Assembly (NCBI GenBank): GCA_025363475.1 | Contig: JANYDS010000015.1 | Span: 20,020 to 84,019 of the forward strand | From: Terriglobia bacterium | Lineage (GTDB): Bacteria > Acidobacteriota > Terriglobia > Bryobacterales > Bryobacteraceae | Direction of reading: 5' to 3' | DNA: 64,000 nucleotides | Part shown: one piece after another, positions 43,719 through 48,886 of the stretch | Layout: the number at the start of each line of letters is the position of its first letter | How positions within the stretch are numbered: the stretch's first letter is position 1 | Made by a program: the position numbers and the translations under genes | Notes under the pieces: model-generated | Told to the model about the DNA's origin: nothing | Seen by the model: only the letters and a program-made list of their open reading frames with translations | Database searches by the model: none

Positions 43719-45161
43719 TTAATATGCCTTGGCGATGACAACGCGGTGTGAAACATCTTCACCGGTAAGAATGCATTTGCCAGGCCCGTCGAATTCATCC
43801 ACCAGCGGGATGTTACGAATGCTGGCCTTGAAGCCCTTGATGCGCGCATCGTTGGCAGGGTCATCTTTGAGATGCGCCATCACGAACTTGCCACCGCCTT
43901 TTTCCGCAGTCACATCGTTCAGAATTTCCTGCACTTCGCCGATGGAATTCGCCAGCACCGTATTGGCCTTGAGCCGGTTCTTAGCTTTGTTGAAAAGATC
44001 CGTCTGCATGGCTTCCAGCGTGGCGGCGAGCCGATTCGCTGCTTCAGGCTGCGGGATCACTTCCTTGGTGCCTGTATCGCGCCGCTTGAGCACAATATTG
44101 CCGCTGGCCACGTCCCGGGGGCCTAGTTCAAACACCACCGGCACGCCCAGACGTTCCCAGTGGAAGAACTTCGCGCCGGGGCTCTGGCCTTCGCGCGTAT
44201 CCACAAATGCGCCCAGTTCCGCAGCCAGTTTCATGGCAGTTTCCATCACGGGCCCGCGCTCTTCTTCTTTGCGGAAGATAGGCACGATCACGGCTTTGCG
44301 CGGGGCCACTTTCGGCGGAAGAACCAGACCCTTGTCATCGGAATGCGTCATGATCAGGCCGCCGATCAGGCGTGTACTGACGCCCCAGCTGGTCTGCCAC
44401 ACGTGCTCAAGCTTGCCTTCCTTGCTCTGGAACGTGACATCGAAGGCCTTGCCGAAATTCTGGCCCAGGTCATGGCTGGTGCCGGCCTGCAGCGCAAGGC
44501 CGTTCTGCATCATCGCTTCAATGGAATATGACCGGTTCGCACCGGCAAATTTTTCGGCGCGGGTCTTAACGCCTTTAATCACGGGCATCGCCATGATGTT
44601 TTCCGCCACGTCGGCGTAAACATCAAGCATGCGCAGTACCTCTTCCAGCGCTTCCGGATGATTGGAATGCGCTGTATGGCCTTCCTGCCAGAGGAATTCG
44701 GTGGTGCGCAGAAACATGCGCGTCCGCAGTTCCCAGCGGATCACATTGGCCCACTGGTTATAGAGCAGCGGCAGGTCCCGGTAGCTCTGAATCCACTTGG
44801 AGAAAAAGTGGCCGATGATGGTTTCGGAAGTGGGCCGGATTACATACGGCTCTTCCAGCTCTTTACCGCCCGCAATGGTCACTACTGCAAGTTCCGGGGC
44901 GAAGCCTTCCACATGTTCAGCTTCTTTTTTCAGGAAGCTTTCGGGAATCAGCAGAGGGAAGTAGAGATTCTGATGGCCTGTGGCCTTGAACCGCGTATCA
45001 AGCTCACGCTGCAGCACTTCCCAGACCGCATAGCCATTGGGTTTGATGACCATGCAGCCCTTCACGATCTCGGCCGGTTCGGCCATGTCACCCTGTAATA
45101 CGACGTCCTGATACCACGTCGCGAAGTCTTTTTCGCGCGCTGTGATGGGAGATTCAGCCAT
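43719..45161 (-). CDS. proS: Prolyl-tRNA synthetase
   Basis: [59 protein letters not shown]. Confidence 0.95.
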
Positions 45162-45168
45162 TTCTGTA

Positions 45169-46896
45169 ATGATATCGTCCACCGTCATCCCGACCCTCAT
45201 CATCGACAATTACGACTCCTTCACCTGGAACCTTGCCCAGGCTGTGGCCGTGATCACAGGGCGCGAACCTGTGGTGGTGCGGAATGATGAAATTTCCTGG
45301 GAGGAGTTAGCGCGGCTGAACCCGGCGCGGATCATTATTTCGCCCGGGCCCGGGTCGCCTGACAACATCCGCGATTTCGGTATTTGCCGTCGCGTGATTG
45401 AGGAAATGCAATGTCCGATTCTGGGCGTGTGTCTGGGACATCAGGGGATTTGTCTGGCGTTTGGCGGCAAGGTGGTCCGGGCGCAAGAGGTGATGCACGG
45501 GCGTTTGAGCCTGGTGTTTCATCAGGGCGATGCGCTGTTTGCGGGCGTTCCCAGTAGCTTCGAAGCGGTGCGGTATCACTCCTTGATTGCGGAATCATTG
45601 CCGGCTTGTCTGGAACGCATCGCATGGTCTGCTGATGGCGAAGTGATGGGGGTCCGGCACCGGACGAAGCCGATTTGGGGAGTGCAGTTTCATCCCGAAT
45701 CCATCTGTACGGAATACGGCGAAGCGATCCTGCGGAACTTCATTGATCTGAGCAGGGAACTGCATTCCGGCCCGGATGCCGGAGCAATGTTTCGTGAACA
45801 GTTTGCGGGCGAGGCTCACGCATTCTGGCTGGACGGGGGCGCTAACGCGTGCAGTTACGTGGGCTCCGGTTCGCGTGTGATCGAAGGCCCTGACGCGCTG
45901 GATCGACTCGCCGCAGACCTGGCACAAAACCGCAGGGAGCCGGATCCCGCTTTGCCCTGGCCGTTTCAGGGCGGCTGGGTGGGCTACATAACCTATGAAG
46001 GCGCAGCCCGCTTCATTTTGGTGGATCGTTTCGTTGCAATCGAGAGTCAAACCGCAGCGCTTTGCCAGTCACCGGGCCCGTCAACAGATCAGTTGCAGTT
46101 CGATATCCCGAAAGACGTCTACCTCAAAAAAATAGCCGACTGTCTGGAAGCGATTCGAGCCGGTGAAAGCTACGAAATCTGCCTGACGAACCAGTTGCGC
46201 GGCACCTGTTCATGGGCTGCGCTTGACTACTTTGAAGCTCTGCGCGCAGCGAACCCAGCCCCCTTCAGCGCTTACATTCAACACCCAGATCTTCAGGTCG
46301 CGTGCTCTTCGCCGGAGTTATTTCTTAATGTCACCGCCAGCGGACGCGTGACATCGAAACCAATCAAAGGCACACTCGCCCGTTCAGCAGATCCGCTACA
46401 GCTTTCTCATGATGAAAAAACGCGCGCCGAAAATCTGATGATTGTCGATCTGGTGCGCAATGATCTCGGTCGTGTCTGCCAGGCGGGCAGTGTCCGCGTG
46501 CCGGTTCTTATGGGCATTGAAACTTACGCGACCGTACATCAAATGGTGAGCACAATTGAAGGAGACTTGAAGCCTGGGCTGACCGCTCTCGACTGCATTC
46601 GCGCCGCCTTTCCGCCGGGTTCAATGACCGGTGCGCCGAAACTCCGTACCATGGAGATCATTGAACGCCTTGAGGCGCAGCCGCGTGGCATTTACTCAGG
46701 GTGTATCGGTTTTCTGAGCTACACCGGTGCGGCCACATTCAATGTGGTGATCCGCAGTGCTGTGTTTACTGATGGCAATGTTTCCATCGGCACGGGGGGC
46801 GCCATAGTCTCCCAGTCTGATCCGGAAAAAGAATGGGACGAACTGGTACTTAAGGCTGAGGTTCTGGTGCGGGCATTGCGCGCGTCAATCGGCTAA
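45169..46896 (+). CDS. pabB: Fused glutamine amidotransferase (PabA) and aminodeoxychorismate synthase component I (PabB)
   Basis: [32 protein letters not shown]-terminal [10 protein letters not shown] and [25 protein letters not shown] favours ADC synthase over anthranilate synthase. Confidence 0.88.
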
Positions 46897-47395
46897 CGAT
46901 TTCGTCAATCACCGAGTCAGCTTTTGCTTCTATCTCCGCGCGAGTCTGATCCTGTACCGGATGCCGGACATAGACCGCGTCGAAGTCAGCCCTGCCCAGC
47001 GCTGCGGCCTGAGCCCGCGCGGCACTCATAAATTCGTGCGTCGCAACCGGCACCGCAGGGATACCGAAGCTTTCCATTTTGATTGAGTCGTGCAAACTGC
47101 ACGTTGTACAGCTCCCTCAATCAGCAAGGGCTTCGATAAAAGCGTCCACACCTCGCAAACTGTCCAGCACATTCTGGGACGCGGGCTTGGTGTAAGTTCC
47201 TTTTTGTGTGCGGATGATTTCGCCCACGCGAAAGCGGGTAGTGAGTAAGTGTTCAAGCCGGTCAAGGAAAGCGCTGCCGCCAGGCTTCGTGATATCCAGC
47301 AATGCGATTATTTTCCCGGCGACTGTGTCCAGGCGAGCAGCCGGCATTCCGGGCAGGACACAAGCGTCGTTCATGGGACTGACTAATGTTGTCAT
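46850..47395 (-). CDS. UGSC-family selenoprotein: in-frame UGA (47117-47119) predicted to encode Sec93; 181 aa
   Basis: ORFs 47117..47395 and 46850..47095 share one frame; read-through gives ...VLDSLRGVDAFIEALAD-U-GSCTTCSLHDSIKMESFGIPAVPVATHEFMSAARAQAAALG...; UGSC motif plus SECIS-like hairpin. Confidence 0.88.
47081..47122 (-). promoter_or_regulatory. Bacterial SECIS-like hairpin overlapping and following the UGA
   Basis: mRNA GAUUGAG-GGAGCUGUACAA-CGUGCA-GUU-UGCACG-A-CUCAAUC: 7-bp lower and 6-bp upper stems, apical loop starting with G, 19 nt between UGA and loop. Confidence 0.8.
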
Positions 47396-47398
47396 AAG

Positions 47399-48886
47399 TT
47401 ATACCGGATACGTCACCATTTGACTGCCGCGCGGGCCGGAAGCCCAACCCTGAAGCATAGCTGAGAATTTGCCCGCCGTACCGCCCGCCACAATAATCTT
47501 AATAGATTCGGGGGACAAAAATTTCTGATAGCAAGGTTCGTCGTCAATCATGATCTCTGTGTAAGTATGACGCGCAGCAGAGCCTTCGCCCGGGTCGTCG
47601 TCGTTGTAACATCGCAGCGGCACGCCTGTATGATCGAATAAAAACTGCCGCACATCCTGCTTGCTCCAGCCATCACGTGCAATGGTCTTTACGTGTTCCG
47701 GGGCCAGAATCAGAAACGCTTCAAACGCACGACAACTGCGGTGAGACCAGTTAGTCGCCAGTGAGTAAGTCATTGTTTTCAGAACACCGCGGGCAGTGCG
47801 GGCGGCCTGCTCTGAAATCCCGTGTGGCGCCCCTGCGGCGAACAGGCTCAACGTGCTTTCGTCTGGACGGAAACCGAGTTCAACGTGAAGGGGCTCCCAC
47901 GGGCTCTCCTCTTCGTTTTCTGCAATACAGTAAGAAAATTTACCAGCGTTGCCCATGGTGGACATGTCAATGGCATCAGGCCGGGCACCGCCAAGGTTGA
48001 GCAGAATCAATTGCAATGCACGACCCACAGAACTGTTCGTACGCGCAACATTGCTGAACAGATTCTGGCGCGAATGAAAGCCCAGTTCCGCGCGCACCGG
48101 CCCATTCATCACGATTAACGGGGCTACAGATTGCGTCGTCGCCTGCACGCCGTGAGCGTTAAAGCGCTCATCGCACAACGCTCGAACCAGCGGGATCAGG
48201 ACCCGCATCATCGGCGGCAGACATCCTGCCATAACCGCATTGGCAGCGATTTTCTCGACCGTGGCTTCGCCGTAACACGGCGGAATGCATCCAATCACTT
48301 CCAGTGGATCGTTGGTCACCGCAGCCAGCATACGAGCAATTCGCGCCGGAGTTGGCGGGACCACGGGAAGAGCATCGCCAAAGGCACGGTAGCAATATTC
48401 GATCAGGTCATCACTATCCGCCACGTCCATCCGCAGCGCCAGGGTTCCCCGCACTGATCCGGTGTTGAGAGCCGGTGCCGTTTCACCGTCCGCCTGTGTT
48501 TCCAGATGACGGGAAGAACAGCCAGGTTTTGACGCAGGCATTCCATCAAACGGCGTTGCCACAGGAGTACTGCCGCACAATGCTGCAAGTTCGTTGATCA
48601 CCTGCTTATCGAAGCCGGGTTCCACCCGCACAACGTCGCCCGAATCGTCCAGCAGGACCAGGCTGGGGACTGTCACTAAATCCAGTGCCCTTGACCGCGA
48701 CCAGTCCGCGTCACGCTCTACCGGGAAAGCCACGCCCGTCTGTTCCACAAACATCCGTGTGTCCGCTTCGCCATCCTGCGAAACGCCAGTCATCTGCACG
48801 CCGTTACCCGCGAGCGCGTTGGCATAGGGGATGATCACGCGGCAGGTGGGGCAGTCGGTCTGAAAGAAAAAAAGCAATCGCGGCAT
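47399..48886 (-). CDS. Thioredoxin-fold N-terminus (CPTC) fused to large uncharacterised domain; upstream partner of the UGSC gene
   Basis: MPRLLFFFQTDCPTCRVIIPYANAL thioredoxin-like; C-terminal Cys-containing region IGCIPPCYGEATVEKIAANAVMAGC; ends 3 nt before the selenoprotein ATG. Confidence 0.7.
   Translation of the reverse strand: MPRLLFFFQTDCPTCRVIIPYANALAGNGVQMTGVSQDGEADTRMFVEQTGVAFPVERDADWSRSRALDLVTVPSLVLLDDSGDVVRVEPGFDKQVINELAALCGSTPVATPFDGMPASKPGCSSRHLETQADGETAPALNTGSVRGTLALRMDVADSDDLIEYCYRAFGDALPVVPPTPARIARMLAAVTNDPLEVIGCIPPCYGEATVEKIAANAVMAGCLPPMMRVLIPLVRALCDERFNAHGVQATTQSVAPLIVMNGPVRAELGFHSRQNLFSNVARTNSSVGRALQLILLNLGGARPDAIDMSTMGNAGKFSYCIAENEEESPWEPLHVELGFRPDESTLSLFAAGAPHGISEQAARTARGVLKTMTYSLATNWSHRSCRAFEAFLILAPEHVKTIARDGWSKQDVRQFLFDHTGVPLRCYNDDDPGEGSAARHTYTEIMIDDEPCYQKFLSPESIKIIVAGGTAGKFSAMLQGWASGPRGSQMVTYPV

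Follow-up and report, generated by a model that had tools for sequence, protein, structure and literature searches.

The 64,000-nucleotide stretch of DNA analysed here (the window), from contig JANYDS010000015.1 of a Terriglobia bacterium in the phylum Acidobacteriota, contains a selenoprotein gene of the UGSC family that standard open reading frame (ORF) calling cuts in two at an in-frame UGA, and, directly upstream, a partner gene encoding a thioredoxin-like domain and a further domain of about 335 aa. The two genes very probably form a unit encoding a selenocysteine (Sec)-dependent redox enzyme, with a Sec site resembling that of GrdB (glycine reductase component B) and PrdB (D-proline reductase) that may be recycled by the partner. 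The UGSC family was reported in 2008 by Zhang and Gladyshev (PMC2398784) and is uncharacterised. Published work (PMC2398784, PMC5029168, PMC13188914) already covers the family, its Sec and how abundant it is, and the family has been modelled, so the discovery of the gene is not in itself new; the window gene adds a member to a known family. The initial annotation of this region read the gene correctly, and had missed the partner gene, the GrdB/PrdB-like site and the fact that the family was already published.

On the minus strand, the UGSC frame runs from an ATG at 47395 through the TGA at 47119–47117 to a TAA at 46852–46850, exactly as the initial annotation had placed it, and the sequence likewise gives the product it had predicted, of 181 aa with Sec at position 93 in the context LAD-U-G-S-C-T-T-C. 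The division of the gene by ORF calling was also reproduced, with one piece of 92 aa (47117–47395) and a downstream piece of 81 aa with a TTG start (46850–47095). Family membership, for which a hidden Markov model search of the read-through product had been proposed, was established by matches above the curated cut-offs to both Pfam PF24696 (residues 16–171, 5.2e-42, 144.3 bits, cut-off 25) and NCBIfam NF041046 (residues 27–171, 1.6e-40, 138.5 bits, cut-off 125), each of which runs through the UGA. Across 67 aligned homologs, P7, Sec93, C96 and F122 were invariant and K37, K65, D92, G94, S95, E108, G111, G134, H145 and P146 nearly so. The C99 position is often occupied by W in other UGSC subgroups. 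Conservation on only one side of the UGA had been named beforehand as a sign of a false reading; conserved residues were found on both sides, and the UGA and its two flanks are kept in homologs from many phyla. Chance read-through is excluded because both flanks match one profile and are conserved across phyla, and sequence comparison confirms the two ORFs as parts of one real gene of the UGSC family, whose product is predicted to contain Sec.

The same genome, which is 96% complete and was searched by profile, encodes the machinery for Sec decoding. A tRNA-Sec was found at 70.7 bits (cut-off 47), with the anticodon TCA assigned by ARAGORN, alongside selA (477.5 bits), selB (350.7) and selD (351.8), all above cut-off; the initial annotation had held that the absence of all four would speak against its reading. 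Among 297 sampled genomes of the phylum, UGSC proteins scored above the cut-off in 32, nearly always with one in-frame TGA. Leaving aside the acidobacterial genus described below, tRNA-Sec was present in 21 of the 22 other sampled genomes with a UGSC gene and UGA, the sole genome lacking it (G116) being an assembly of about 240 contigs. It was present in five of 20 same-class relatives without UGSC, and neither UGSC nor tRNA-Sec occurred in the two genomes sampled from the same family.

A short hairpin lies at bases 17–31 counted from the U of the UGA. Its pairing was retained in 100% of cells across 52 distinct homologous sequences, with compensatory changes at four of the five pairs, such as C-G to G-C at the pair closing the loop, and none of 500 shuffled controls equalled these values. 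Within the loop, G23 was found in 82 and U24 in 85 of 86 sequences, and these positions match the G and U contacted by SelB in the selenocysteine insertion sequence (SECIS) of Escherichia coli fdhF. The G-C form of the closing pair goes with mostly Trp, rather than Cys, at the third position of the UxxCxxC motif. By computational evidence the hairpin qualifies as a SECIS element, and the sequence data indicate that Sec is almost certainly inserted at the UGA in vivo. That the UGA is instead a true stop or a sequencing error, leaving a broken gene or two small proteins, would agree with the two pieces from standard ORF calling and the TTG start of the second; this is exceedingly improbable given the same UGA across phyla with both flanks conserved, the covarying hairpin and the Sec machinery in the genome.

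The stop codon of the partner gene lies three bases before the UGSC start codon, which makes co-transcription and translational coupling of the two genes probable. To examine the association, the genome_contigs collection (84,980 species) was searched with the partner domain of about 335 aa in place of UGSC. Among the best 80 loci, 72 had a UGSC gene at a distance of up to 2 kb, in most cases of up to 250 bases, and of these UGSC genes 70 had the UGA, one had Cys and one was cut by a contig end. The 80 loci were distributed across Acidobacteriota, Binatia, Rokubacteria, Methylomirabilota, Chloroflexi, Poribacteria, Sumerlaeota, Alpha-, Beta- and Gammaproteobacteria, Acidimicrobiia and one haloarchaeon. 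The remaining eight loci, without UGSC, included two abutting contig ends (L086 and L097) and four from Poribacteria with a shorter domain. In the reverse direction, 16 regions with a standalone UGSC gene were fetched, a small set from one phylum, and 14 of them contained the partner. Fusions of the two proteins, with UGSC N-terminal, were found in the acidobacterial genus g43 (family f28), a groundwater Chloroflexi bin (L123) and a proteobacterial bin (L105). In the work of Zhang and Gladyshev (PMC2398784), UGSC is reported as fused to a domain named 'Unknown_1', which may, as a guess, be the partner domain. Taken from gene order and fusions, the partner is in all likelihood part of the same enzyme as UGSC.

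The Cys form belongs to the haloarchaeon Natrialba asiatica, in which a UGSC gene with the motif DCGSCTSWC (L115, 5360–5863) adjoins the partner; this natural variant would be useful for expression without Sec machinery. The four Poribacteria loci (L090, L094, L095 and L096), with the shorter partner domain and no UGSC nearby, point either to a partner that was lost or to another role for the domain.

Table. Coordinates of the UGSC gene, its recoding signals and the partner gene in the window
Feature	Position	Strand	Remarks
UGSC-family selenoprotein gene	46850..47395	minus	181 aa, Sec93, stop TAA 46852-46850; profile matches spanning the UGA
In-frame UGA, codon for Sec93	47117..47119	minus	UGA in the same alignment column of nearly all homologs examined
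UxxCxxC codons, U93-G-S-C96-T-T-C99	47099..47119	minus	No variation at U93 or C96 among the 67 sequences aligned
SECIS-like hairpin CGUGC-AGUUU-GCACG	47089..47103	minus	Just 3' of the UGA; covariation in homologs
Partner gene, 495 aa	47399..48886	minus	Kept next to UGSC in relatives
Thioredoxin/ResA-like domain of partner, residues 4-92, CPTC redox motif	48611..48877	minus	AhpC-TSA at 2e-07; ResA structures closest
Partner domain of about 335 aa, residues 160-495	47402..48409	minus	No Pfam, NCBIfam, PHROG or PDB sequence match

The N-terminal domain of the partner matches AhpC-TSA and also scores as Redoxin; among solved structures, its best relatives are ResA/DsbE reductases rather than peroxidases. 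It shares this domain and the CPTC motif with the ResA/DsbE/thioredoxin family (PF00578, PF08534) and differs from it in being fused to a domain without known relatives and in having no obvious signal peptide in this copy. The second domain, of about 335 aa, contains the motifs DGLPVVPPT, NAVMAG and NGPI; it had no match in Pfam or NCBIfam and only chance-level matches in PHROGs, and neither UGSC nor the partner profile matched any PDB sequence when searched directly.

The similarity of the Sec site to GrdB and PrdB was seen at the level of the Sec segment. In a search of the phylum for GrdB, the PF07355 matches (L193–L205) ended just before the Sec codon, so that the segment shared with UGSC lies outside the matched part. 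Reading past these matches gave ...VDAVLLTPVUPMC...E..GIPT..., with NUATCSRCGA as the corresponding stretch of one full-length GrdB. Aligned with hhalign, the UGSC profile and these GrdB-like Sec segments gave a probability of 88.7% and a score of 41.3, with Sec placed on Sec, Cys on Cys and E..GIP on E..GIP; 150 column shuffles scored 24.2 or less and an unrelated alignment 12.5, the E-values being those of single comparisons rather than a database search. The NCBIfam PrdB model TIGR04483 matched the same motif stretch of a fused UGSC protein weakly (E 0.069). UxxCxxC is named as the GrdB motif in a 2026 review (PMC13188914), and the UGSCTTC of the window protein fits it. There is thus good evidence at the sequence level that the Sec segments of UGSC and GrdB/PrdB are homologous, as distinct from membership of PF07355. 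UGSC shares with GrdB/PrdB (PF07355, TIGR04483) the UxxCxxC motif, the following E..GIP and, further on, HP, whereas it has no PF07355 match, a distinct N-terminal half and a different gene partner. The chances that UGSC also has GrdB/PrdB-type Sec chemistry are about even.

Short GrdB/PrdB-like proteins with UPxC motifs (L193–L205) were common in this phylum. As the PF07355 matches stop before the Sec codon, such proteins are probably truncated by gene callers.

For structure modelling, Cys was substituted for Sec. The AlphaFold model of the window UGSC protein (predicted local distance difference test, pLDDT, 94.4) consists of five alternating beta-alpha units, with Sec93 located between the third beta strand (85–91) and the helix at 94–109, and Foldseek returned no thioredoxin among the 50 best PDB matches of this model. 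UGSC is therefore predicted by the model to have an alternating alpha/beta fold and not the thioredoxin topology published for it. The window protein agrees with the published UGSC family in its full-length profile match, UGSC motif and UGA-encoded Sec, and differs in its two-gene arrangement with a thioredoxin-domain partner and in that the model lends no support to a Trx-like fold. An alternative was proposed when the family was described, and UGSC is listed among the Trx-like-fold families (PMC13188914): UGSC would be a thioredoxin-fold thiol/selenol oxidoreductase in which UxxC acts like CxxC and the partner serves only as reductant. The UxxC motif and the thioredoxin domain in the partner gene are in keeping with this, but the predicted fold and the Foldseek result disagree with it and profile comparison groups the site with GrdB/PrdB, making it very unlikely.

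The Foldseek matches that were obtained for UGSC, to the C-terminal domain of glycoside hydrolase 3 and others (template modelling score about 0.5), look like generic alpha/beta similarities and were not taken to indicate function. For a fused UGSC-partner protein (L049), the AlphaFold model had a pLDDT of 92.8 and a predicted template modelling score of 0.91, indicating confident relative placement of the two domains. Its one PDB match at E <= 0.001 was the glycoside hydrolase also matched by the UGSC model alone, which leaves the partner domain without an evident solved relative.

The preferred reading, a Sec-dependent redox enzyme made of both proteins, suggests the following mechanism. The UGA would be read as Sec by SelA, SelB, SelD and tRNA-Sec, guided by the hairpin. 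Sec93 would act as the nucleophile for reductive bond cleavage in a small organic molecule, in the manner of the glycine and proline reductases, and C96 (and here C99) would then close a selenenylsulfide with it. The partner's CPTC thioredoxin domain would reduce this Sec93-C96 bond, as would a separate thioredoxin where the partner has no such domain, and the second partner domain, of about 335 aa, would serve in substrate binding or supply the rest of the active site. Recycling by the thioredoxin domain of the partner is somewhat more likely than not. The AhpC-TSA and Redoxin scores of the same domain could instead point to an antioxidant or organic-hydroperoxide-detoxifying selenoprotein with a peroxiredoxin-like partner, and thiol peroxidases are reported as numerous among environmental selenoproteins (PMC2398784). 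With a CPTC thioredoxin motif in the partner, ResA/DsbE reductases as its solved relatives and a modelled UGSC fold that is not peroxiredoxin-like, an antioxidant role is unlikely.

Several observations weigh against the proposed Sec-dependent enzyme and its GrdB/PrdB-like site. The UGSC protein had no match to PF07355 (GRDB) up to E 10, nor did a PF07355 search of its own genome give a match. The partner was considered as a GrdE-type pyruvoyl subunit and rejected, since comparison with two PF09338 proteins gave a probability of 0.2%; in this the system differs from glycine reductase, whose chemistry is not transferable wholesale, and the activation step must differ. W replaces C99 in many UGSC relatives, and partners without a thioredoxin domain exist among relatives. 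The partner domain resembled no PDB fold in the search with the L049 model (E <= 0.001). The 72 same-strand neighbour genes (L061–L151) showed no common pathway by Pfam content and gave no hint of a substrate, the counts being thiolase 5, AIR-synthase/SelD-like 3 and pyridine nucleotide-disulphide oxidoreductase 3. Finally, some fused paralogs in genus g43 lack Sec (L059, L069, L070, L172, L185 and L188) and also lack Cys at the UGSC position, as in VKTSGS and VGDSGQG, which suggests that the UGSC domain still has a function when the redox residue is lost.

In genus g43, each genome carries 10–28 UGSC domains, most of which are fused to the partner domain, in the eight genomes counted (G113, G274, G258, G122, G037, G196, G085 and G180). 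By our own count, an in-frame TGA is present in about 20 of the 28 domains of G113 and 18 of the 19 of G122. All eight genomes had a tRNA-Sec match, seven of them above the cut-off, and several fused copies start with an N-terminus resembling a secretion signal. This is a striking expansion of a single selenoprotein family.

No earlier description of the near-obligate partner, the relationship to GrdB/PrdB or the non-thioredoxin fold was found in the open-access papers searched. We tentatively propose that UGSC and its partner represent an undescribed class of Sec-dependent reductase complexes found in many phyla, in which a GrdB/PrdB-type site is combined with a protein of about 335 aa replacing the pyruvoyl subunit, often with its own thioredoxin, and that the 10–28 copies of genus g43, several with secretion signals, form a family of substrate-specific reductases. 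If true, this family would be comparable in breadth to the reductive dehalogenases. With the conserved partner, the fusions and the GrdB/PrdB link, the 'unknown redox protein' becomes the subject of a specific enzyme hypothesis that can be tested. The partner gene has no internal UGA, which makes it usable as a marker for UGSC genes split by gene callers.

No convincing promoter or terminator turned up when the minus strand was scanned, the region had no match in Rfam, and a scan of viral contigs with the UGSC protein as query found no relatives. At its 3' end the UGSC gene shares 47 bases (46850–46896) with the 3' end of a convergent plus-strand gene at 45142–46896, which is anthranilate/aminodeoxychorismate synthase-like.
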